A stretch of DNA of 64,000 nt, from positions 62,001-126,000 of the forward strand of contig NZ_CABFKH010000003.1 of assembly GCF_901764975.1 (NCBI RefSeq), in the 5' to 3' direction. This document shows, in pieces, positions 16,611-57,157 of the stretch. The stretch comes from Actinobacillus indolicus. Its GTDB lineage: Bacteria > Pseudomonadota > Gammaproteobacteria > Enterobacterales > Pasteurellaceae. Every line of letters starts with the position of its first letter. Positions within the stretch are counted from its first letter, which is position 1. The position numbers and the translations under genes were made by a program. Below the pieces are notes generated by a model. That model did no database searches. It worked only from the letters and a program-made list of their open reading frames with translations, and was not told the origin of the DNA.

Positions 16611-17909
16611 TTAGCCTTGTTGTTGAGCCATCACTTCATCAAATGAAGAGGCTTTTTCTGTCACTTTTGCTTTTGCAAGCACAGCTTCAACTGCTTGTTC
16701 TTCCAACACTACGTTACGGATGTTATCTGTTAAGCGTGGGTTTTTCGCATAGTATTCAACCACTTCTGCTGGTTGTTCGTAAGCTGATGCTAATTCTGCG
16801 ATGGTTTCTTTCACACGATCTTCATCAACTTTTAACTCGTTAGATGTGATTACACTTGAAAGTAATAAACCGACTTGAACACGGCGTTTTGCATCTGCTT
16901 CAAATAATTCAGCTGGTAATTGTGCAGCCATTTCTGGTTTGCCGCCGAAACGTTGAACTGCTTGCTGACGTAATACATCCACTTCTTCAGCGACTGCTGA
17001 TGCAGGGACTTCGATGTCGTTATTTGCTAATAAACCGTTGATTACTTGGTTTTTCACACGAGCAGTTAATGCATTTTTTAACTCACGTTGCATATTTTTC
17101 TTGATTTCAGCACGTAACTCTTCAACGGTTTTTGCTGAACCAAATTTTTTCACAAACTCTTCTGTTAATTCAGGAAGAACAGTGTTTTCTACTTTTTTCA
17201 AGGTAATTGCGAACTTCGCAGCTTTACCTTTTAAGTTCTCAGCGTGGTATTCTGTTGGGAAAGTTACGTTGATGTCGAACTGTTCGCCCGCTTTGTGACC
17301 TACGATACCTTCTTCAAAACCAGGGATCATACGACCTTGACCCATTGCTAATACGAAGTCAGATGCTTTACCGCCTTCGAACTCTTCGCCATCTACTGAA
17401 CCTACGAAGTCGATAGTTACACGGCCATCTGCTTTCGCTGCTTCAGCAGTTTCTGCGAATGTTGCTTGTTGTTTGCGTAATACATCAACCATTTTGTCTA
17501 AATCAGCTTCTGTGATTTCAGCTACTGGTTTTTCTACTTCGATGTTTTCTAAGCCTTTTAATTCAACTTCTGGGAACACTTCAAATGTTGCAGTGAAAGA
17601 GAACTCTTGACCTGGTTGGTAGTTGTTTGGAGTGAATGTTGGACGACCTGCAAGGTTGATTTTCTCTGCAATCACAACATCAAAGAAAGCACGTTGCATT
17701 TCTTCAGATAAAACATCTTGACGAGCCGCTAAACCGAAACGTTGTTCAATGATTGAGTGAGGAACTTTCCCTTTACGGAAACCATCTACACGAGCATTTT
17801 TCGCATAGCCTTTTAATTGTTCTTTATAGCCTGCTTCGATTTTATCTGCAGGAACGGTAACTGTTACGCGGCGTTGTAAGCCTTCTAATGTTTCAATAGA
17901 AATTGACAT
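16611..17909 (-). CDS. tig: trigger factor
   Basis: A 432-residue ribosome-bound chaperone and peptidyl-prolyl isomerase. The ribosome-binding signature [17 protein letters not shown] is at about residues 43-59. The FKBP-type domain ([27 protein letters not shown]) is about 160-245, and the helical C-terminal chaperone arms follow. Length matches E. coli (432). clpP, often downstream, is not here. The next gene on this strand is the rhodanese-secB group after about 100 bases. Confidence 0.97.
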
Positions 17910-18069
17910 TCTTAAACCTCAGTAATTGGAAAAGGATTTGGTATCTAAAATACAGATAGAAAAATAGACCGAAATTGTAACGTTCTGTCAATGCAATGTC
18001 GAGAACTTTAGTCAATAGAGCGTGGATCGTGAAAGGGGGAAAGTGTGTTTGAGTGAATTTTAAACAAAA

Positions 18070-18097
18070 ATGGAAAGTCTTTTCAGACTTTCCATTT
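18070..18097 (-). terminator. terminator of the BON-LysM gene
   Basis: Stem ATGGAAAGTCT with loop TTTC and its complement, followed on the minus strand by TTTTTG. It lies 20 bases past the gene end. Confidence 0.85.
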
Positions 18098-18117
18098 TTA
18101 CATATCAAAGGATAAAA

Positions 18118-18558
18118 TTATAACCCTTTAGGAATACGAATTTTTTGACCAGGGAAGATCTTATCTTCGTGTTTAATCACTTCTTTGTTTGCTTCAACGA
18201 TCGCTTTATATTTTGCACCGTTACCATAAGCATTTTCAGCGATTTTCCATAAAGTATCACCTTTTTGAATCACATAGAATTCATCATCACCTGCGATTTG
18301 GCCTTCTTTAATCACCACATCATCAATATTCACATTGTTAATGCCTGCAACGTTACCCGCCATTAAAATTGCTTTTTCGATTGCGATTGCTGTTGATGCC
18401 GCACCAGTAATTTTTGCTGTGCCATCTTCAACAGTAACGTTTAAGCCTTCAATACCTGGATTATCTTCTGCAATGTGATCTGTCACTGCTTTAGATGCAT
18501 CTTCTTCTTTGTTAAATAGTTTTTTGCCAATATTTGCTGCAAAATCAAATAAACCCAT
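18118..18558 (-). CDS. kbp: BON and LysM domain potassium-binding protein Kbp (YgaU)
   Basis: A 146-residue cytoplasmic protein. The BON domain is about residues 25-85 (GLNVTVEDGTAKITGAASTA; VAGINNVNIDDVVI). The C-terminal LysM domain is 93-144 (YVIQKGDTLWKIAENAYGNG; ILPGQKIRIPK-type end). This is the layout and length of E. coli YgaU/Kbp, a K+-sensing protein. It has no signal peptide. Single gene with its own terminator. Confidence 0.92.
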   Translation of the reverse strand: MGLFDFAANIGKKLFNKEEDASKAVTDHIAEDNPGIEGLNVTVEDGTAKITGAASTAIAIEKAILMAGNVAGINNVNIDDVVIKEGQIAGDDEFYVIQKGDTLWKIAENAYGNGAKYKAIVEANKEVIKHEDKIFPGQKIRIPKGL

Positions 18559-18789
18559 AGTTTAAGTCCTCTTAAAGTGAAAAATCTTGAGCGAGATACT
18601 CAATCGCTCATTAGAGTAACTGATTTTAAGAAAGTTCAGTAATCATTTTTGTATTTGTCATAAAAATCTATTAACAAGCGGGTACTTTTGCAAAAAAGTT
18701 TGCAAATCTAACCGCTTGCAGTTTCTGTTATTTTCCTTAAATTTACGTTACAATCGCTCGTTTACAATTTTAATGCAAAAGGATAGACC

Positions 18790-19227
18790 GTGAAGCAAGT
18801 GCAATTCTATATTTTGAGCCAAACTCAAATAGGCGAACTTTCCGCCCAAGAAGCCCTTGCTTGCGATTTAGCCGCAAAAGCGTGGCGACAAGGTAAACGC
18901 GTACTGATTGCTTGTGAAACCGAAGAACAAGCATTCAACCTTGATGAAGCACTTTGGGCAAGAGAAGCAGATGATTTTGTACCGCATAATCTGTCTGGTG
19001 AAGTCACTACCTATGCCACACCGATTGAAATTTCGTGGAAAGGTAAACGCAATGCTCAACGTAGAGATCTGTTAATTTCATTACAAACAGCATTACCCGA
19101 TTTTATTAACAGCTTTAATCAAATTATTGATTTTGTCCCTGTGGATGAAACTGAAAAATCCCAAGCAAGAGAGCGTTATAAACAGTATCGTCAGTTGGGG
19201 TGGCAGTTGAGCACCGAGCAAGTTTAA
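18790..19227 (+). CDS. holC: DNA polymerase III subunit chi
   Basis: A 145-residue clamp-loader accessory subunit that links the complex to SSB. Family marks are QVQFYILSQ at the N-terminus, ALACDLAAKAWRQGKRVLIACE, LDEALW and FVPHNL. The start codon is GTG with AAAAGGATAGA upstream. valS lies downstream as in other gamma-proteobacteria, but two acetyltransferase genes stand in between. Confidence 0.9.
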   Translation: MKQVQFYILSQTQIGELSAQEALACDLAAKAWRQGKRVLIACETEEQAFNLDEALWAREADDFVPHNLSGEVTTYATPIEISWKGKRNAQRRDLLISLQTALPDFINSFNQIIDFVPVDETEKSQARERYKQYRQLGWQLSTEQV

Positions 19228-19235
19228 GGAGAGAA

Positions 19236-19739
19236 ATGTTCCGCCTAGCAGAACAAGATGATTTAACCCGAATTCTTGAAATTTATAACCAAGTGATTGA
19301 AAGACGCACGGTGACGGCTGATTTAGCTCCTGCAACGAAGGAAAGTCGCCAAGCGTGGTTTAATCAGCATCTAAATCATACTAAATATCCGATTTGGGTG
19401 TATGAATTGGACGGACAAATTGTTGCGTGGTGTAGCTACTCGCAATTTTACAGCCGTGCCGCTTATGACGGCTCTAGCGAAATCAGTTTTTATCTCGATA
19501 AAGCGGTTCACGGCAAAGGTATCGGCAAAGCCTGCGTAAATTTCCTGATTGAACAAATGCCAAATTACCAACTGCACACGTTATTAGCGTTTGTGTTCGG
19601 CAATAACACTCAAAGTTTAGGCTTACTGAATAAAGTGGGTTTTGAAATTTGGGGAAAACTCCCCCAAGTTGCAGATATGGAAACGCATTTTGAAGATTTA
19701 GTGATCTTAGGATTGAAACAAGGCGTATGTGGCAACTAA
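19236..19739 (+). CDS. GNAT family N-acetyltransferase (phosphinothricin acetyltransferase-like)
   Basis: A 167-residue GNAT enzyme of the PAT/MnaT type. It begins FRLAEQDDLTRILEIYNQVI, the usual PAT beta1-alpha1. The acetyl-CoA loop is HGKGIGKACVNFLI and a final EIWGKLPQVADMETHFEDLVILG strand pair fits. Substrate unknown; relatives acetylate amino-acid analogues such as methionine sulfoximine or sulfone. The ATG at 19236 has AAGGAG overlapping the holC stop, so it is coupled to holC; the frame runs back to 19200 without support. Confidence 0.85.
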   Translation: MFRLAEQDDLTRILEIYNQVIERRTVTADLAPATKESRQAWFNQHLNHTKYPIWVYELDGQIVAWCSYSQFYSRAAYDGSSEISFYLDKAVHGKGIGKACVNFLIEQMPNYQLHTLLAFVFGNNTQSLGLLNKVGFEIWGKLPQVADMETHFEDLVILGLKQGVCGN

Positions 19740-20158
19740 AGGCATTTTCCGAACTTTCTGCCCAAGAACTTTTTGAGATTTACCAAGCGCGTATCGCCGT
19801 TTTTGTGGTAGAACAGAATTGCGCTTATCAAGAAGTCGATGACAAAGATCGGAAAGCCTTACACCTTTTTGCAAAAAATTCGGCAAAACTGACCGCTTAC
19901 TGTCGGATTATCCCTGAACAAGACGGTGTGCATATCGGCAGAGTGTTGGTAACAAAAGAAGCTCGTGGGACAGGCTTAGCAAAAAAATTGATGACACAAG
20001 CCTTAACCATTTGCCAGCAACAATGGCAAAGTGAAAACGTCTATGTGCAAGCTCAAGCCTACTTGCAAGATTTTTATCAATCGCTCGGGTTTAAACCGAT
20101 TTCTGAGGTTTATTTGGAAGATGGGATACCGCATTTGGATATGGTAAAAGGCGAGTAA
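19727..20158 (+). CDS. elaA: ElaA family GNAT N-acetyltransferase
   Basis: A 143-residue protein of the ElaA subfamily. Marks are WQLKAFSELSAQELFEIYQARIAVFVVEQNCAYQEVDDKD at the N-terminus, HIGRVLVTKEARGTGLAKKLM as the CoA-binding turn, and the QAQAYLQDFYQSLGFKPI end. Target unknown. It overlaps the preceding acetyltransferase by 13 bases, implying a holC-GNAT-elaA operon. Confidence 0.88.
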   Translation: MWQLKAFSELSAQELFEIYQARIAVFVVEQNCAYQEVDDKDRKALHLFAKNSAKLTAYCRIIPEQDGVHIGRVLVTKEARGTGLAKKLMTQALTICQQQWQSENVYVQAQAYLQDFYQSLGFKPISEVYLEDGIPHLDMVKGE

Positions 20159-20164
20159 CAAATT

Positions 20165-20306
20165 TCCCCTAGCCCTAGCACTGTAAAACCGTACTAGGTT
20201 AAGCATAATTCAGCCCCGCTGGGACTGGAGATTAGAAAAAAAGGCCACAGCGTGGCTCACTCAGTCGAAGACTGAACGTAACCACGTACGGCTTTGCCGT
20301 GCGTGG
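20165..20306. repeat. cluster of short palindromes related to the MITE-like element
   Basis: The gap upstream of valS holds several hairpins: GCCAC...GTGGC (about 20253-20265), CAGTC...GACTG, and CCACGTACGG-CTTTG-CCGTGCGTGG (20282-20306). The segment GCATAATTCAGCCCC (about 20203) is identical to part of the elements at 55185 and 56183, and the palindrome with core GTACGGC resembles theirs. I read it as a decayed or variant copy. An uptake signal follows at about 20310. Confidence 0.5.
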
Positions 20307-20457
20307 ATGACAAGCGGTTAGATTTGAGTAAAATTTTGCAAAATTTATAGAAAGCCAAGAGACTAAATAAATTTCATAGGATGCGTGCAAACGCACCATT
20401 TCATTTTAAATTTAGAAATAACGGTGTGTTATAAGCACCTTAGCAAAGAGAAACAAA

Positions 20458-23322
20458 ATGACCCAAAAATTCGAAATGGCAGATCGTTTCGACTCATCGG
20501 CAGTCGAACAAGCACTTTATAAACACTGGGAAGAACAAGGCTATTTTAAGCCGAATGAAAACCCGAATGTTCCAAGTTACTGTATCGCAATCCCACCGCC
20601 AAATGTGACGGGGAGTTTGCATATGGGGCACGCTTTCCAGCAAACCTTAATGGATACCTTAATCCGTTTTAACCGTATGGAAGGCAATAACACCCTATGG
20701 CAAGCGGGGACTGACCACGCGGGGATTGCGACCCAAATGGTGGTGGAACGTAAAATTGCGGCGGAAGAAGGCAAAACTCGTCACGATTATGGGCGTGAGG
20801 CTTTCATCAATAAAATCTGGGAGTGGAAAGCTTATTCAGGCGGTACAATCAGCCAGCAAATGCGCCGCTTAGGTAACTCAATTGACTGGGATCGTGAGCG
20901 TTTTACGATGGACGACGGCTTGTCCAATGCGGTAAAAGAAGTGTTCGTGCGTTTACACGAAGAGGGCTTGATTTATCGTGGTAAACGCTTGGTAAACTGG
21001 GATCCGAAATTGCATACGGCGATTTCCGATCTTGAAGTGGAAAACAAAGAGAGCAAAGGCTCGCTGTGGCATTTCCGCTATCCGTTAGCTAATGGGGCGA
21101 AAACAGCGGACGGTAAAGATTATTTGGTGGTGGCAACTACTCGTCCTGAAACGATGTTAGGCGATACGGCGGTGGCGGTTCACCCTGAAGATGAGCGTTA
21201 TCAATCGTTGATCGGCAAAACCGTGATCCTACCGCTTGCAAACCGTGAAATCCCGATTATTGCTGACGATTATGTAGAGCGTGAGTTCGGTACGGGCGTG
21301 GTGAAAATTACCCCTGCCCACGACTTCAACGACTACGAAGTGGGTAAACGTCATCAGTTGCCAATGGTAAACGTGATGACCTTAAATGCGGATATTCGTG
21401 CGGAAGCGGAAATTATCGGCTCAGACGGTAAACCATTGCAAAATTATGTCGCAATTATCCCGGCTGATTATCAAGGTTTAGAGCGTTTTGCGGCTCGTAA
21501 GAAAATCGTGGCGGACTTTGAAGCCCTTGGTTTATTAGAAGAAATTAAACCGCACGACTTAAAAGTGCCTTACGGCGACCGTGGTGGCGTGCCGATTGAG
21601 CCAATGCTGACAGACCAATGGTATGTGAGCGTGAAACCGCTTGCGGAAGTAGCAACTAAAGCAGTGGAAGACGGCGAAATTCAATTCGTACCAAAACAGT
21701 ATGAAAACCTCTATTTCTCTTGGATGCGTGATATTCAAGACTGGTGTATTTCTCGCCAACTTTGGTGGGGACACCGTATTCCTGCGTGGTACGATGCGGA
21801 AGGCAACGTTTATGTGGCGCGTGATGAAGCGGAAGTGCGGTCAAAATATCAGTTAAATGCTGATGTTGCGTTAAAACAAGATGAAGACGTGTTAGATACT
21901 TGGTTCTCATCAGGCTTATGGACATTTTCAACTTTAGGCTGGCCGGAGCAAACCAAAGAGCTCAAAATGTATCACCCGACCGATGTGTTAATCACAGGCT
22001 TTGACATCATCTTCTTCTGGGTGGCTCGTATGATTATGTTTACGATGCACTTCATCAAAGATGAAAACGGCAAACCGCAAGTGCCGTTCAAAACTGTGTA
22101 TGTAACGGGCTTGATCCGTGATGAACAAGGGCAAAAAATGTCGAAATCAAAAGGGAACGTATTAGACCCGATTGATATGATTGACGGTATCAGCCTTGAA
22201 GATCTACTCGAAAAACGCACGGGCAATATGATGCAACCGCAGTTGGCAGAAAAAATTGCCAAAGCAACCCGTAAAGAGTTCGAGAACGGTATCGCCCCAC
22301 ACGGTACGGACGCATTGCGTTTCACCTTGGCGGCACTAGCGAGCAACGGACGTGACATCAACTGGGATATGAAACGTTTGGAAGGCTATCGTAATTTCTG
22401 TAACAAATTATGGAATGCGAGCCGTTTCGTACTTACTAACGATAAATTAGACTTATCGGCAGGCGAAGTGGAATACAGCTTGGCGGATCGTTGGATCCAA
22501 TCCACATTCAACCGCACTGTGGGCGAGTTCCGTGATGCGTTAAGCCAATACCGTTTCGACTTAGCAGCAAATACCATTTACGAATTCACTTGGAACCAAT
22601 TCTGTGACTGGTACTTAGAACTGACCAAACCTGTGTTTGCGAACGGCACAGATGCACAAAAACGTGGTGCAAGCCAAACCCTCGTGCGTGTGTTGGAAAA
22701 ACTATTACGTTTAGCGCACCCGATTATTCCGTTCATCACGGAAGAAATCTGGCAGAAAGTCAAAGACTTTGCAGGGGTAGAAGGCGACACCATTATGTTA
22801 CAACCTTTCCCGAAAGTAGAGGAAAGCCAAATTGACGAAGCGGCAGAAATGCAAATCAACTGGTTGAAAGAGTTGATTGTGGCTGTGCGTAATATCCGTG
22901 CAGAATGCAACATCGCCCCAAGTAAAGGCTTGGATTTCTTAGTGCGTAACCTGTCTGATGAACATTGCAAAATGTTAGCGGAAAATGATCGCTTGTTAAA
23001 AGCAATGGCGAAATTAGACAGCGTACAAGTGCTTGCCCAAGGCGAAGAAGCTCCGCTTTCAGTGGCAAAACTAATCGGCAACGCAGAAGTGCTAGTACCA
23101 ATGGCAGGCTTTATCAACAAAGATGCCGAACTTGCTCGTTTAACCAAAGAGATCGAAAAACTTCAAGGCGAAGTTAAACGTATCGAAGGCAAACTCAGCA
23201 ACGAAGCCTTTGTCGCAAAAGCTCCAGAACAAGTGATCGCTAAAGAGCGTGAAAAAATGCAAGAGTACCAAGACGGACTTGAGAAATTGCAAGCGCAGCA
23301 TAAGGCGATTGAAGCACTTTAG
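20458..23322 (+). CDS. valS: valyl-tRNA synthetase
   Basis: A 954-residue class Ia synthetase that charges tRNA-Val. The HIGH motif is in [15 protein letters not shown] (about residue 48) and the KMSKS in [10 protein letters not shown] (about 560). An editing CP1 domain lies between (about 200-345). The tRNA-binding anticodon domain and a C-terminal coiled coil (about 885-950, [16 protein letters not shown]) follow. Length is as in E. coli (951). It has its own leader of about 300 bp with palindromes and ends in a strong terminator. Confidence 0.97.
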
Positions 23323-23332
23323 TGTGAGAAGA

Positions 23333-23367
23333 AAACCGTTGGGTGATGAGGACCCAACGGTTTTTTT
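23333..23367. terminator. terminator between valS and panF
   Basis: Stem AACCGTTGGGT with loop GATGAGG and its complement, followed by seven T. It serves valS, and perhaps the convergent panF on the other strand. Confidence 0.85.
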
Positions 23368-23377
23368 ATATGTTTTG

Positions 23378-24814
23378 TTATTGGTTTTGAGATTTTTTCT
23401 CTCCAATGCGGTTGCCTATATAAAATGCAACTAAACCAATAAAGAGTGCGGGAACAATAACGTGGAAGCTTAAAATTTTAATTCCTAACACTGTCATTCC
23501 CACATAGCTTGTTAATCCTGCCACCATAGACCATAATGCCCCTGTGGCATTTGCTTTTTTCCAGAATAGCCCTAAGACAATCACCCATAAGAATGTGGCT
23601 TCTAATCCGCCTAATGAAAGTAAATTCAGCCAGATTAACATTTCAGGGGGATTGATAGAGGCAAAAATTAAGAATATGCAAATGGTTAACGTTGTTGTTG
23701 TAGAGAAGAATTTAATCTTCTTCTCATCATCAATAGCATTAGGTTTAATGGCCAAGTAAAGATCTTTAATCAATGTTGATGATGATTGAATCAACATTGA
23801 ATCAATAGACGACATAATGGCTGCCATTGGTGCGGCTAAGAAAATACCTGCCACAACAGGAGGTAAAACTTGCATCATTAATGTTGGGATAACCTGATCT
23901 GCGACCTTTAAATCTGGTAGTAACGCTCTGCCTAATGTGCCAGCAAGATGCATACCAAACATTAAAATCGCGACGACCACAGTACCAATAATTAACGCAC
24001 GATGTAATGCTTTGCTGTCCTTGTACGCCATACTTCGTACCGCAAGATGAGGTAATCCAATTAAACCAAAGCAGACTAATACCCAAAAGGAGGTCATGAA
24101 GGTAAAATCTAATGGACGTTCATCAATGCCGTAGGGTTCAATCAGTTGGGGGTTAATGATTTCTAATTGATTGATCGCATTTTCAACGCCACCTGTGGCA
24201 TAAATAACACCGCCGAGTAATAACAGCGTACCGAATACCATCACTAATCCTTGAATAGTATCGGTCAATACGACTGCACGGAATCCACCAATGAAAGTAT
24301 AGATCCCTACAGTGATTGCAAAGATAAGAATAGAGGTGGAATAAGAGATGCCTAGGGTTGTTTCGAGCAAACGTCCAGCGCCAATAAATTGAACGGTCAT
24401 CATGGCAAAGAATGAGAGCAATAATGCAAAGCTGGAGATCCAAACAACAAAGCGATTTTGATAGCGAGCGAATAAAATATCATTGATCGTCACGCTGTTT
24501 GTTTGGCGAGCAAGCATGGCTAATTTTTTTCCAACAACGCCCAAAGAGAGTAATACCGCAGGGACTTGAATCATCGCAAGTAAAACCCAGCCTAATCCAT
24601 ATTTATAGGCCGCGCCAGGACCTCCAATAAAGCTACTTGCACCAACGTAGGTGGCTGCTGTTGTCATAGCGAGAACAAAGCCAGACATGGAACGTCCGCC
24701 CATGTAATATTCTGATAAGAAACTACCGCTTGTACGTTGGCGGTAAGCATAGTACGCCACACCAAATACAAAAATTAAGTAGGCAATAAGGGGAAGTAAC
24801 ATCTCAAGATTCAT
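23378..24814 (-). CDS. panF: sodium/pantothenate symporter
   Basis: A 478-residue sodium:solute symporter (SSF family, about 13 helices) that imports pantothenate for coenzyme A synthesis. Marks are FLSEYYMGGRSMSGFVLAMT, ATYVGASSFIGGPGAAY in TM2, GGFRAVVLTDTIQGLVM as the SSF signature, and AAPMAAIMSSIDSMLIQSSS in TM8. The protein aligns over its length with E. coli PanF (483 residues). It overlaps yhdT by 11 bases, the same coupling as in E. coli. Confidence 0.93.
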   Translation of the reverse strand: MNLEMLLPLIAYLIFVFGVAYYAYRQRTSGSFLSEYYMGGRSMSGFVLAMTTAATYVGASSFIGGPGAAYKYGLGWVLLAMIQVPAVLLSLGVVGKKLAMLARQTNSVTINDILFARYQNRFVVWISSFALLLSFFAMMTVQFIGAGRLLETTLGISYSTSILIFAITVGIYTFIGGFRAVVLTDTIQGLVMVFGTLLLLGGVIYATGGVENAINQLEIINPQLIEPYGIDERPLDFTFMTSFWVLVCFGLIGLPHLAVRSMAYKDSKALHRALIIGTVVVAILMFGMHLAGTLGRALLPDLKVADQVIPTLMMQVLPPVVAGIFLAAPMAAIMSSIDSMLIQSSSTLIKDLYLAIKPNAIDDEKKIKFFSTTTTLTICIFLIFASINPPEMLIWLNLLSLGGLEATFLWVIVLGLFWKKANATGALWSMVAGLTSYVGMTVLGIKILSFHVIVPALFIGLVAFYIGNRIGEKKSQNQ

Positions 24815-25043
24815 CTTTGCCCTCTAAATCAAACTCTTTAAAACAGCATTTAACCACCATGACAATGACTAAAATAAATAAGAGTGGTAAATAAATACAT
24901 GAAAGCTCGAACCAGATTGGGAAACCTAAAATGCCTCTTCCTGTTGGAGAAAAATAAGCAAATCCTATCCAGCCAAGTATATAGAATAAGGTGAGCGACA
25001 ATGCCCAACGGACTTCTTTACTAATTTGTTGTGAAATTTTCAT
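24804..25043 (-). CDS. yhdT: YhdT family membrane protein (DUF997)
   Basis: A 79-residue protein with two membrane segments (about 14-32 and 44-66), containing GWIGFAYFSPTGRGILGFPIWFELSC. Length and position just upstream of and overlapping panF are those of E. coli YhdT. Probably an accessory to PanF; this is inferred from the conserved pairing, not shown. Confidence 0.88.
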   Translation of the reverse strand: MKISQQISKEVRWALSLTLFYILGWIGFAYFSPTGRGILGFPIWFELSCIYLPLLFILVIVMVVKCCFKEFDLEGKDES

Positions 25044-25060
25044 ATTATTCCTTTAAAACA

Positions 25061-25082
25061 AAACCTCGCATTTGCGAGGCTT
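25061..25082 (-). terminator. terminator of metJ
   Basis: Stem CCTCGCA-TT-TGCGAGG followed on the minus strand by TTTTG; sits between metJ and yhdT. Confidence 0.8.
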
Positions 25083-25091
25083 AGGTTTAGA

Positions 25092-25409
25092 TTAATATTG
25101 CCACTCATCAGGGTCAATGCCCATTTTTCGCATTTTCGCTTTAGCTTCTTCTGGAATTTCATCATGGCGCTCTTTCATCAGATCTTCATCCGTTGGAAGT
25201 GGCTGACCTGTGAAAGCATGAAGAAATGCTTCACACAACAATTCACTGTTTGTTGCATGACGAAGATTACGGATTTGACGACGTGTACGTTCATTCGTCA
25301 AAATTTCCAATACTTTAATTGGAATAGAGACTGTGATTTTTTTAACTTGTTCGCTCTTTTTGCCGTGCTCAGCATAAGGGCTAATATATTCACCGTTCCA
25401 ATCTGCCAT
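25092..25409 (-). CDS. metJ: methionine repressor MetJ
   Basis: A 105-residue ribbon-helix-helix repressor that binds DNA with S-adenosylmethionine. It has the conserved [26 protein letters not shown] start with the DNA-contacting beta strand [11 protein letters not shown], then [34 protein letters not shown]. It is single-standing here and has a probable operator of three met boxes upstream, so autoregulation is likely. Confidence 0.97.
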
Positions 25410-25468
25410 GGATTATCTACCTTAAATTCAATCAAGTGGTGTATATTCTAATCAAAACCGCAATATAT

Positions 25469-25492
25469 CGCAATCTAGACGTCTAGATTTCT
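25469..25492. promoter_or_regulatory. MetJ operator (three 8-bp met boxes)
   Basis: The central box AGACGTCT (25477-25484) is a perfect match to the met box. It is flanked without spacing by CGCAATCT (25469-25476) and AGATTTCT (25485-25492). Tandem 8-mers are the MetJ binding pattern. It lies about 60 bases upstream of the metJ start, between metJ and acpP. Confidence 0.75.
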
Positions 25493-25502
25493 TAAAGACA
25501 AT

Positions 25503-54253: not shown

Positions 54254-54829
54254 TTAGTGGTTGCAACCACAACCGCCGTGTCCGTGATGGTGGTGATGAT
54301 CGTGGTCGTGATGGCCGCCACAACAACCGTGATCTTCATCGTGATCGTGACCACAGCAACCGCCTTCTTGATGAACGTGACCGTGAGCGATTTCTTCTAA
54401 TGTCGCTTCACGAGTTGCAACTACTTCCACAGAGAATAATAACTCTTGACCAGCTAACATATGGTTACCATCAACAACCACTTCATCGCCATCAACTTCC
54501 GTGATCACCACAGGTAATGGACCTAAATCTGTGTCTGCGATAAAACGCATACCTACTTCTAATTCATCAACGCCCATAAACACATCTTTTGGTACACGTT
54601 GCACCATATTTTCATTGTATTCGCCGTATGCTTCTTCTGGTTTAACACGCACTTCAAAGGTATCACCAACCGCTTTACCTTCTAACGCATTTTCTAAACC
54701 GATAACAAGATTGTTGTGGCCGTGTAAATATTCTAATGGTTGCTCAACTGGTGCTTCATCAACTAATACGCCATCTTGAGTACGAACTTGATATGCGATA
54801 CTTGGCACAACATTTTTTGCGATTTTCAT
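54254..54829 (-). CDS. slyD: FKBP-type peptidyl-prolyl isomerase SlyD
   Basis: A 191-residue prolyl isomerase and nickel/zinc chaperone. The FKBP part (VVPSIAYQVRTQDGVLVDEA; PLEYLHGHNNLVIGLENALEGK) has the IF insert at about 75-125. The C-terminal tail (about 147-191) is dense in His, Cys, Gly and Asp (GGCCGHDHDEDHGCCGG; DHDHHHHHGHGG), a metal site used for Ni delivery. Length as E. coli (196). First gene of a slyD-ilvA-glmM run. Confidence 0.95.
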   Translation of the reverse strand: MKIAKNVVPSIAYQVRTQDGVLVDEAPVEQPLEYLHGHNNLVIGLENALEGKAVGDTFEVRVKPEEAYGEYNENMVQRVPKDVFMGVDELEVGMRFIADTDLGPLPVVITEVDGDEVVVDGNHMLAGQELLFSVEVVATREATLEEIAHGHVHQEGGCCGHDHDEDHGCCGGHHDHDHHHHHGHGGCGCNH

Positions 54830-54908
54830 GTAAGGATTCCTTATTTATTGATAAAAATTCCAAGCATTGTAGCTTGTTATGAAGGATTTGCAAATTTTAG
54901 AAAGAAAG

Positions 54909-54935
54909 TGACCGCTTATATTCATAAAGCGGTCA
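54909..54935 (-). terminator. hairpin after the 53-residue lipoprotein gene
   Basis: TGACCGCTTATA and TATAAAGCGGTCA-type halves form a stem based on shortened uptake cores, followed by TTTC on the minus strand. Confidence 0.55.
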
Positions 54936-54941
54936 TTAAAA

Positions 54942-55103
54942 TTAATCTGTAATATCAGGGGTAACAGCATCCACCACATCAACTGCTGCTCCTACTGCAG
55001 TAGTTGCTGCACCAACTGCAGTACCGACAACAGAGGTCACTAAACAAGCACTTAAAGTGCTACAAACTAAAATGAATCCGAGAAGTTTAACTAAATGTTT
55101 CAT
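54942..55103 (-). CDS. very small lipoprotein
   Basis: A 53-residue frame reading MKHLVKLLGFILVCSTLSAC, with a clear lipobox LSAC (Cys 20). The mature part is Ala/Val/Thr-rich (VVGTAVGAATTAVGAAVDV) and ends VDAVTPDITD. This pattern recalls small Gammaproteobacterial lipoproteins of the kind with VVDAVTPD ends; that is from memory of the family, not a search. No good ribosome site is seen. It sits between slyD and the MITE-like element. Confidence 0.6.
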   Translation of the reverse strand: MKHLVKLLGFILVCSTLSACLVTSVVGTAVGAATTAVGAAVDVVDAVTPDITD

Positions 55104-55184
55104 AAAATATAAAAAATAAAACCAAAAACAGTGTCGATTATAACCGAAGATAAAGCGATTTTCTTTAAAATCTATAAAAGATGT

Positions 55185-55400
55185 TAAGGCGTATTGATGT
55201 TTTGATGGTGTAAAATCACCAAGAGTTGTTTATTTAATATCCCAGCACGGCAGAGCCGTACTGGGTTACGCATAATTCAGCCCCTTTGGGGCTGAGAATT
55301 AGAGTAGTAAAGCCACTCAACTATGCGTAACCTAGTACGCATTTTGCATGCTAGGTACAAAATAGTATGTTTTATAAGCACAAAACATCAACAAGCCTTA
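55185..55400. mobile_element. MITE-like element, copy 1
   Basis: A 216-bp element ending in the inverted pair TAAGGCGTATTGATGTTTT (left) and AAAACATCAACAAGCCTTA (right). Inside are strong palindromes: CCCAGCACGGC...GTACTGGG and CAGCCCCTTTGGGGCTG, and the AACCTAGTACG...GCTAGG pair. It encodes no protein. The outer TA on each side could be a 2-bp target duplication. Copy 2 at 56183 is the same sequence in reverse. Confidence 0.7.
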
Positions 55401-55413
55401 TTTATCTTATTTT

Positions 55414-56139
55414 TTATTCAAATCGCACTTTACCCGAAGCAGATGCGTTGATAATTTGCTTACCTGCTTCAAGTGGTAATTCATCAGCAGATTTCATTTT
55501 CATTGATGCGGCTTCCATTGCGTACATACGTGGCGCAGTATATCCATGATTAGCACTGTTTGGTGTATCTAAGCGAATATCGCTTAAAATATATTTATTC
55601 GCTTTTAACCCTTTTTGGATAACTTCCGCTTTATGTTGGAATTGTTCAATAATTTCTAAGGTCATTTCATCTTCAAGGGCTTTGGCTTTTTCAGGTGAAA
55701 CACTGAAATCCACCGAACCAATCGCCACATTATCCCCTAAGTTTTCAAGCACTTTGGCAATCGCTTCAAAGTTTTTACCCTTCAGTTGAATATGCCCTTC
55801 TGCCACCCAACCGATTACTTTGCCTTTATTATCATATTCCGCATAGTTACTGATACCGTCCGCAGACACTTCGATGCTTGAATCTTGCTTCGCCAGTTCT
55901 AATACCTTATTCAAATCTGCCGAAACCGTTTTTTTCAACTCGGCTAACTTTTTACCTGATTTACGACTATAAACATCTGCATGCATTAAATCTTTTTCAA
56001 CATGACGGGTTACTTGTGTTGAAAAATGGAAAACAGATCCTGTTTCTGCTTTGGCTTCCGATGTCGTTTCAGGTTCGGCAGAAGCACTTAATGTGATAAA
56101 TGCAAGCGGTAAGATCGCTAAATAATTTTTCAATTTCAT
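55414..56139 (-). CDS. exported SIMPL-domain protein (DUF541)
   Basis: A 241-residue protein with a 21-residue signal peptide ending ASA, then an acidic stretch and a SIMPL domain (about 35-241). Marks are HFSTQVTRHVEKDLMHADVY, VSADGISNYAEYDNKGKVIGWVAEGHIQLKG and PRMYAMEAASMKMKSADELPLEAGKQIINASASGKVRF. Related proteins are periplasmic or outer-membrane-associated and of little-known role (E. coli YggE). It lies exactly between two inverted copies of a MITE-like element, 14 and 43 bases away. Confidence 0.85.
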   Translation of the reverse strand: MKLKNYLAILPLAFITLSASAEPETTSEAKAETGSVFHFSTQVTRHVEKDLMHADVYSRKSGKKLAELKKTVSADLNKVLELAKQDSSIEVSADGISNYAEYDNKGKVIGWVAEGHIQLKGKNFEAIAKVLENLGDNVAIGSVDFSVSPEKAKALEDEMTLEIIEQFQHKAEVIQKGLKANKYILSDIRLDTPNSANHGYTAPRMYAMEAASMKMKSADELPLEAGKQIINASASGKVRFE

Positions 56140-56182
56140 AGAAGATTCCTTGAGTTAAAGATCAGTTTAAAAATATGCAGAT

Positions 56183-56397
56183 TAAGGCTTGTTGATGTTT
56201 TTTGCCGTAAAATATACTATTTTGTACCTAGCACGCAAAATGCATACTATGCTACGCATAGTTGAGTGGCTTTGTCACTCTAATTCTCAGCCCCAAAGGG
56301 GCTGAATTATGCGTAACCCAGTACGGCTCTGCCGTGCTGGGATGTTAAACAAACAACTTTTGATGATTTTATACTCTCAAAACATCAACACGCCTTA
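56183..56397. mobile_element. MITE-like element, copy 2 (inverted)
   Basis: A 215-bp reverse copy of the element at 55185, starting TAAGGCTTGTTGATG and ending CATCAACACGCCTTA. The two copies share nearly all of their length, with small differences. TA is the outer dinucleotide on both ends. No coding capacity. Confidence 0.7.
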
Positions 56398-56422
56398 GAA
56401 TGCTTTTAAGTAAATAAGTTCC

Positions 56423-57157
56423 CTATTCAACCGAAAGAACAATGGCTTGATTCAAGTGCTGCTCATGGATTTTCCATTGAATGTTATATCCTGCAATTAA
56501 CATCCCATAAATACGTTCGCTCTGTTTTCCTTGCTGATAAGCTGGACGAGGATCTTGAGCAATGATGTCTCGAATAAATTCAATCGGATCTTCAATCTCA
56601 AATGTTGCAAAATTTTCACAAGATCTTACCGCTTGTAATGCTTTTTCAGTAAATTCCACACTCAATTTAGCTTCGGGCTTCGTTTGGGCAAAGCCTGAAG
56701 CTGCATTCGGCTCACTGTCGGCATAAGCAATATAAGGTTTGATGTCCAAAATCGGCGTTCCGTCCACTAAATCCACGCTCCCAAAATGCAGAAACACATC
56801 TCCATTTTTTATTTCAACACGATGTAACTCGACTTTCGATAGCCCGATTGGATTTGGTCGATGCGTTGCACGGCTTGCAAACACGCCAATACGTTCATTT
56901 CCCCCTAAACGTGGTGGGCGCACGGTAGCGTGCCATTCTCGTTCTGGAATTTGGTGAAATTGGAAAATAAGCCAAAGGTGACTAAATTGCTCTAATCCAC
57001 GCACGGCATCTACACTATTGTAAGGTGGAAGCAGTTGCAAAATCCCCTTGCCTTCTTTGACTAAATTGGGCTGACGTGGCACGGCAAATTTTTCACCATA
57101 AGGCGAACGGATTACGCCAATAGGATGAACAAGAAGAGAAGAAATCGGATTTGCCAT
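56423..57157 (-). CDS. trmO: tRNA (adenine(37)-N6)-methyltransferase TrmO
   Basis: A 244-residue enzyme of the YaeB/VirR/TsaA family that methylates t6A37 to m6t6A using S-adenosylmethionine. Marks are [23 protein letters not shown] at the start, [56 protein letters not shown] and [12 protein letters not shown]. The ATG at 57157 gives the family start (E. coli 235 residues). The frame runs on to 57409 but the extra part overlaps the menA 5' region and shows no homology. Confidence 0.93.

Follow-up and report, generated by a model that had tools for sequence, protein, structure and literature searches.

Among the small mobile DNAs of bacteria, MITEs and REPINs are usually held to be separate classes. 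The passages on bacterial MITEs in PMC3733652 and PMC2817692 describe the Correia/NEMIS, RUP and Nezha families as non-coding, intergenic elements of 70-300 bp that end in terminal inverted repeats and fold strongly, and give IS630 as the parent of Correia and RUP. REPINs and BIMEs with their RAYTs are presented, in parts of PMC3116915 and PMC2817692, as inverted palindromic units that cluster in tandem by a Y1 gene and carry compensatory changes, and one passage of Bertels and Rainey 2011 (PMC3116915) suggests that REPINs derive from palindromes flanking an IS200-like element. For the IS427 group of IS5, the Paracoccus table in PMC3281130 gives a 2-bp target duplication and a length of ~830-870 bp, with two overlapping ORFs as the usual arrangement and a single ORF in one member.

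The locus analysed here lies in a window of 64,000 nucleotides (contig 3, positions 62001-126000, of the Actinobacillus genome that we call G000; the other two genomes of the genus in our set are G001 and G002), and consists of two inverted copies of a short element on either side of a SIMPL-domain gene. The copies resemble Correia/NEMIS, RUP and Nezha in their length, terminal inverted repeats, lack of coding capacity, strong fold and intergenic position. However, their ends are of IS5 type, where Correia and RUP have an IS630 parent, and, in contrast to the three families as these papers portray them, their interior repeat (the ‘core’) also occurs without the ends. We think it likely that the copies are non-autonomous mini-transposons of the IS5/ISSpu10 kind with a REPIN-like middle, and that they represent two separate insertions and not a composite transposon. 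The features of the locus are as follows.

20172-20309, forward strand: a third core, this one lacking ends of IS5 type (57.1 bits with model R1, E 4.8e-11)
54942-55103, reverse strand: small lipoprotein-like gene of 53 aa (by eye), kept in the alignment with G001 and G002, on the far side of the missing aqpZ
55185-55400, forward strand: left MITE copy, 216 bp, at the site of aqpZ in relatives
55185-55203, forward strand: terminal inverted repeat TAAGGCGTATTGATGTTTT, outer end of the left copy
55239-55358, forward strand: REPIN-like core of the left copy, with five helices (131.8 bits with model R1, which was built from 18 sequences including this one)
55382-55400, reverse strand: terminal inverted repeat TAAGGCTTGTTGATGTTTT, gene-side end of the left copy
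55414-56139, reverse strand: SIMPL (DUF541) gene framed by the copies (PF04402, E 3.1e-25)
56183-56397, reverse strand: right MITE copy, 215 bp; G001 shares the orthologous site between trmO and the SIMPL gene
56183-56201, forward strand: terminal inverted repeat TAAGGCTTGTTGATGTTTT, gene-side end of the right copy
56224-56343, reverse strand: REPIN-like core of the right copy (128.7 bits with model R1, whose 18 sequences likewise include it)
56379-56397, reverse strand: terminal inverted repeat TAAGGCGTGTTGATGTTTT, outer end of the right copy
56423-57157, reverse strand: trmO (PF01980/PF18389), a conserved neighbour whose end lies 25 bp past the right copy

The inverted pair has arms at 55176-55374 and 56208-56406, which are 90% complementary over 199 nt without a gap. 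The original prediction had described an inverted pair of MITE-like copies of ~215 bp, exactly framing the SIMPL gene, and this description holds: the right copy aligns at full length to positions 1-216 of the left with 91% identity (E 1.8e-81; 91.2% over the 215 aligned bases), and the gaps to the gene are 13 bp on the left and 43 bp on the right, for which ‘exactly’ is a fair word. The terminal inverted repeats with flanking TA that it had noted are likewise there, as four matching 19-bp ends with the consensus TARGGCnTGTTGATGTTTT, each of which has TA at its outer edge. No ORF of at least 60 aa was found wholly inside either copy. With lengths of 216 and 215 bp, four such ends and non-coding interiors, both copies have the size and structure by which MITEs are recognized, and the transposase-bearing ISs and the empty site described below mark them as MITEs. 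The sequence TAAGGCNTNTTGATGTTTT has four exact matches in the 2.1-Mb draft genome G000, and these are the four ends of the two copies; a scan of G000 with the end pattern in which up to 3 mismatches were allowed returned 40 matches.

The earlier guess that the ends loosely resemble those of IS5-group elements with TA targets is borne out by IS5-family elements that carry both a transposase and matching ends. At no more than one mismatch, the end pattern has matches in 40 of 140 genomes of the Pasteurellaceae; by row count there are 86 matches versus 25 for a reversed control, so many single end matches are due to chance. Genome G097 has five matches, all near contig ends, and a complete element of 890 bp stands at the start of one of its contigs. 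This element has TAGGGCGTGTTGATCTTTT on one side and TAGGGGCTGTTGATCTTTC on the other and encodes a 267-aa protein, an IS5-family transposase (265 bits with NF033580 IS5_3, cut-off 110; PF13340 and PF01609). A second intact IS, in G142, ends in TAGGGCGTGTTGAACTTTTGAGTA and encodes a protein 69% identical to that of G097. Of 3,136 plasmid records 30 were listed, a set that leaves out one record with 80-90% identity; in this set the best full-length matches are ISSpu10-family elements with 66% identity. A Shewanella IS of this family has the ends TAGGGCTTGTTGATCTTT and TAGGGCCTGTTGATCTTT, and a Moellerella element has the end TAGAGCGTGTTGATCTTT. Of the 18 positions of the MITE consensus TARGGCnTGTTGATGTTT, 17 are matched by the first Shewanella end (with R and n taken as matches), and the ISs, which are themselves ~880-890 bp long, also have TA at their edges. 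The copies in the window, on the other hand, contain no transposase and have the ends alone in common with these ISs: the G097 IS matches the MITE ends at all but 2 of 19 positions, and by eye little is shared past ~25 bp. Autonomous elements with matching ends, for which a search had been proposed, are therefore present in G097, G142 and Shewanella, contrary to what would have refuted the prediction. These ISs possibly belong to the IS427 group: the TA edges and the length of 880-890 bp roughly fit the Paracoccus table, and the G097 gene is one ORF, where two overlapping ones are usual for that group.

A transposase of the G097 type was detected at E<=1e-20 in 6 of the 140 family genomes, where some copies are broken or partial, but was not found at this threshold in G000, G001 or G002. 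Since the genus yielded no matching transposase, movement of the copies probably needs, or needed, an enzyme from outside. A PF01609 search of the genus gave a single gene, in G001 (L184, 389 aa), which we rejected as a helper: its length is different, it lacks such ends, self-comparison found no inverted repeats around it, and a Rhs-like frame lies alongside (by eye). Separately, G003 contains a 270-bp element (L153 2073-2342; contig 3, 39072-39341) with TAGGGCGTGTTGATGTTTC at both ends and another interior, without a core, and contig 10 of the same genome has a second pair of TAGGGCGTGTTGATGTTTC ends.

The SIMPL gene has orthologues in 24 of the 41 genomes searched, including all three of the genus (G000, G001 with 92% and G002 with 88%). 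We fetched eight SIMPL neighbourhoods, aligned those of G000, G001 and G002, and scanned all eight with the core model. In the alignment, gene order is the same to either side of the gene; G001 has a single copy, between trmO and the SIMPL gene and thus at the position of the right copy, and G002 has none. Correspondingly, the scan recorded a core twice in G000 and once in G001, and the remaining six neighbourhoods had none. Judged by these comparisons of gene content and order, the SIMPL gene is vertically inherited, and is not cargo. The interval between this gene and the lipoprotein-like gene holds aquaporin Z and no copy in G001 (NF003838, 411 bits) and G002, whereas in G000 it holds the left copy and no aqpZ. 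By coordinates, a close AqpZ adjoins the SIMPL gene in G003 and G011 as well. No close aqpZ was found in G000, whose sole relative of the gene is 31% identical and located elsewhere in the genome. Because aqpZ stands next to the SIMPL gene in relatives and G000 has only this 31% relative, aqpZ was most likely lost in the G000 lineage, with the left copy marking the place. The break points are not readable to the base, and insertion with loss of the adjoining DNA, deletion between two direct copies, and replacement by transformation would all fit. The locus gives a concrete example of a MITE sitting at the site of a probable gene loss, and we infer that the left insertion and the loss of aqpZ are linked.

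As regards effects on the neighbouring genes, no Rfam family matched within 54800-56700 up to E 1, and a promoter scan of the region gave 5 sites compared with 5.8 in shuffles. Since this is no excess, we claim no promoter role. Terminator-like sites number 6 versus 1.5 expected, and two of the six are inside the copies. The copies beside the SIMPL gene are presumably passive insertions, whose folds may affect transcripts.

The synteny decides against a composite transposon, in which both copies and the SIMPL gene would move, or have moved, as one unit. Intact-ended inverted copies so close to either side of one gene do invite this interpretation, which was part of the original prediction, but the bracketed gene is a family gene that keeps the same, collinear neighbourhood when accompanied by one copy or by none, and the left copy occupies the position of aqpZ. 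We therefore reject the composite transposon on synteny and give it next to no credence. A local inverted duplication, by which the left copy would have been made from the right through a short-range hop or recombination in the G000 lineage, fits the fact that the sole two intact copies of the genome are 1 kb apart. By simple arithmetic, random sites in 2.1 Mb would bring them within this distance with a chance of ~0.1%, and this improbable spacing hints either at a local hop that preceded the species split or roughly coincided with it, or at an insertion hot spot. A tree constrained to unite left and right copies is also not rejected (p-AU 0.104). However, the left copy resembles the G001 copy (93.4%) more than it does the right copy (91.2%), which is itself 92.4% identical to the G001 copy, and the unconstrained tree groups the G000 right copy with that of G001 (support 80/76 and 75/76). 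Shared derived bases point the same way, with four common to the G000 right and G001 copies, two to the left and G001 copies, and one to left and right, and each copy has TA edges of its own. We consider a local duplication unlikely, though not implausible. The two copies would most simply be separate insertions, of which the right one entered upstream of the SIMPL gene before G000 and G001 split, and the left one now stands downstream of the gene where the G000 lineage lost aqpZ.

Further copies elsewhere, which had been proposed as a check, exist in both the genus and the family. G000 has two intact copies, G001 has two near-complete ones, and four two-ended copies were found among the stretches fetched from G093. 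Actinobacillus porcinus, A. minor and an uncultured Actinobacillus have copies of 213-217 bp, whose identity to the left copy is 86-91%; matching records number 22, and some matches outside the Pasteurellaceae are expected by chance. A Glaesserella parasuis plasmid carries a match (90% identity over 71% of the query) that lacks the left end, and phage records gave no match. The proposed comparison with empty sites succeeded in one place: in the alignment of G000, G001 and G002 neither copy of the pair has a clean empty site, but another G001 copy, which is 190 bp long with one decayed end and lies upstream of aroA, is missing in G000. The empty site in G000 reads ...CCACA/TTATGC... and the filled site in G001 reads ...CCACA-TA[element]TA-TTC..., so that there is one TA when empty and a TA on either side when filled, with a drift of 1-2 bases. 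Since the boundary of this insertion is an IS5-type end, the comparison argues, as far as sequence can tell, that the end-to-end unit moved as a whole. At another place in G000 (L003; contig 4, 31982), a decayed copy can be discerned by eye, consisting of a core and a sub-terminal stretch like that of the right copy, with its ends gone.

The original prediction was thus right about the pair, its MITE nature and its IS5-type ends, and wrong about a composite transposon, and it overlooked that the interior is structured. The 120-nt middle can be folded into a hairpin A, a closing stem TTACGCATA.../...TATGCGTAA, two inner hairpins and a second hairpin A, and is laid out as two inverted halves, each of the form ‘hairpin A - GTTAnGCATAA - hairpin B’. 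Folding of whole copies gives z-scores of -11.1, -12.1 and -9.3. In the alignment of the 18 sequences, 91.0% of pair cells are standard pairs. Compensatory changes, as counted among these related sequences, altered both sides in 11 of 48 pairs, a number that was reached in none of 500 shuffles and compares with 0-5 in slid controls, whereas one of the five covariation measures (further pair types) was within the shuffle range (308/500).

With scoring limited to 25 candidates in any one genome, and with most places counted on both strands, the covariance model of the core has matches at E<=1e-4 in 66 of the 140 Pasteurellaceae genomes. No IS5-type end at one mismatch or fewer was found in 42 of these 66, among which G092 has ends with 2 and 4 mismatches. 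We also compiled 74 distinct cores from 79 matches entered by hand, most of them with at least ~41 bits, after exclusion of place-repeats and of weaker half-units by tnpA genes; at least one match of 41.4 bits (L271) is omitted. When an end is called at up to 4 mismatches on each side, 23 cores have both ends, 2 have one end and a contig end on the other side, and 49 have none, proportions that reflect a set including the model's own sequences and the best match per genome and are not population estimates. The split is sharp, in that a best end match of 3-4 mismatches occurs in only 2 of 639 control pieces of 100 bp from the window.

Several observations connect the core to IS200-type genes. 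On contig 7 of G000, four cores, forming two tandem pairs, lie upstream of a 151-aa Y1 gene (PF01797), whose product L007 scores 68.2 bits with the IS200 model NF033573 (cut-off 55). This gene was found at E<=1e-20 in 46 of the 140 genomes, with three copies in G000. Among 30 tnpA loci that we fetched, one per genome, a core match is situated no more than 200 bp from the gene in 21 at E<=1e-4 and in 28 at E<=1 (hand count), many of the matches being half-units that run into the end of the gene. In L257 and L260, which have no core match, two hairpins joined by a GTTAATCTAG linker are visible by eye. At several loci, such as L247, tnpA is placed between two inverted half-units, and a free core corresponds to these halves minus the gene; this arrangement recalls the origin of REPINs suggested in the passage of PMC3116915 mentioned above. 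Half-units flanking tnpA occur in many genera, and cores near tnpA lack the IS5-type ends.

The core therefore shows what characterizes REPINs and BIMEs with RAYTs as these are presented in the papers, namely an inverted palindromic pair near a Y1 transposase gene, tandem clustering and compensatory changes. It differs from them in having two hairpins per half and no GT(A/G)G head, which is absent by eye from both the core alignment and the tnpA flanks. Moreover, unlike RAYTs, the one Y1 protein tested (L007) reaches 25.6 bits with the model of REP-associated tyrosine transposases, NF047646, below its cut-off of 80. The Haemophilus REPs tabulated in PMC2817692 (Nunvar 2010) are, to judge from that table, of another type, GTAGGGTGGGC.... 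As classical REP features are missing, we call the core REPIN-like: it appears to work like a REPIN, and we do not claim that it is one. A junction with a repeat of the GTAGGGTGGGC... type can be seen by eye at L016 (G027, contig 1, 827422), where half a MITE, broken within its core, is joined to such a REP.

These links raise the question of whether Y1 mobility alone might move the 216-bp element, with the IS5-like ends as passengers. The three Y1 tnpA genes of G000, and the failure to find an IS5 helper, speak in favour of this, but the boundary at the single empty site, that at aroA, is an IS5-type end with TA and not the edge of the core, and the cores near tnpA do without these ends. IS200-type mobility as the only mechanism is thus disfavoured, and we regard it as very unlikely. 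Alternatively, the interior could be a generic hairpin insulator or terminator that was born in the MITE, pieces of which tnpA loci later captured. Strong folds are common in MITEs, and fragments of the MITE do exist (L016, L027 and L037, by eye). However, the many genomes and distinct cores in which IS5-type ends are lacking, together with the half-units beside tnpA in many genera, speak against a birth in the MITE, and we consider it unlikely.

We thus return to non-autonomous mini-transposons with a REPIN-like middle as the likely explanation. Each copy would consist of two 19-bp ends of the IS5-family, DDE-type kind, inserted at TA and leaving TA on both sides, around a middle that would be a REPIN-like unit such as flanks IS200-type Y1 genes in the family, and not a shrunken IS5 gene. 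An IS5-family transposase, probably supplied from outside the genome, would move the 216-bp unit. The core would descend from the ends of an IS200-type gene, as a Y1/REPIN-like unit, and transposition of the element and independent mobility of the core are both inferred. It seems that a REPIN-like repeat has come to sit inside an IS5-type MITE, with two mobility systems in 216 bp. On our analysis, IS-derived MITEs and REPINs are each known kinds of element, and the new part would be their nesting in one small element; among the matches listed in a search of the open-licence literature, we found no description of a MITE-REPIN chimera, or of these repeats in Pasteurellaceae. IS5-type ends around a REPIN-like core would show that MITEs and REPINs can be stacked, and a stacked element would offer REPIN-like repeats a route across species. 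More tentatively, it is possible, if short of probable, that the element is a hybrid open to two unrelated transposases, which arose when a REPIN-like unit recognized by IS200-type HUH enzymes gained DDE ends of IS5 type. If so, the repeat would spread with the help of IS5 helpers, even on plasmids, and then meet its own Y1 enzyme. Groups of genomes differ in the stretches that separate end from core, and capture of the core by IS5-type ends may thus have happened more than once.

The tnpA genes have a recurrent genomic position. On contig 1 of G000 (17500-25500; L275), the gene order is hisD-hisC-tnpA-hisB-hisH-hisA-hisF-tnpA-hisI, with hisA and hisI assigned by eye. In the 30 family loci (L245-L274, from 30 of the 46 genomes with a match), tnpA is between hisC and hisB in 13, between hisH and hisF in 9, between hisF and hisI in 1, and between tldD and prmA in 4, and has none of these neighbours in 3. 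Its repeated residence in one operon, that for histidine, suggests either that it has been domesticated or that the hairpins flanking it have a regulatory role.
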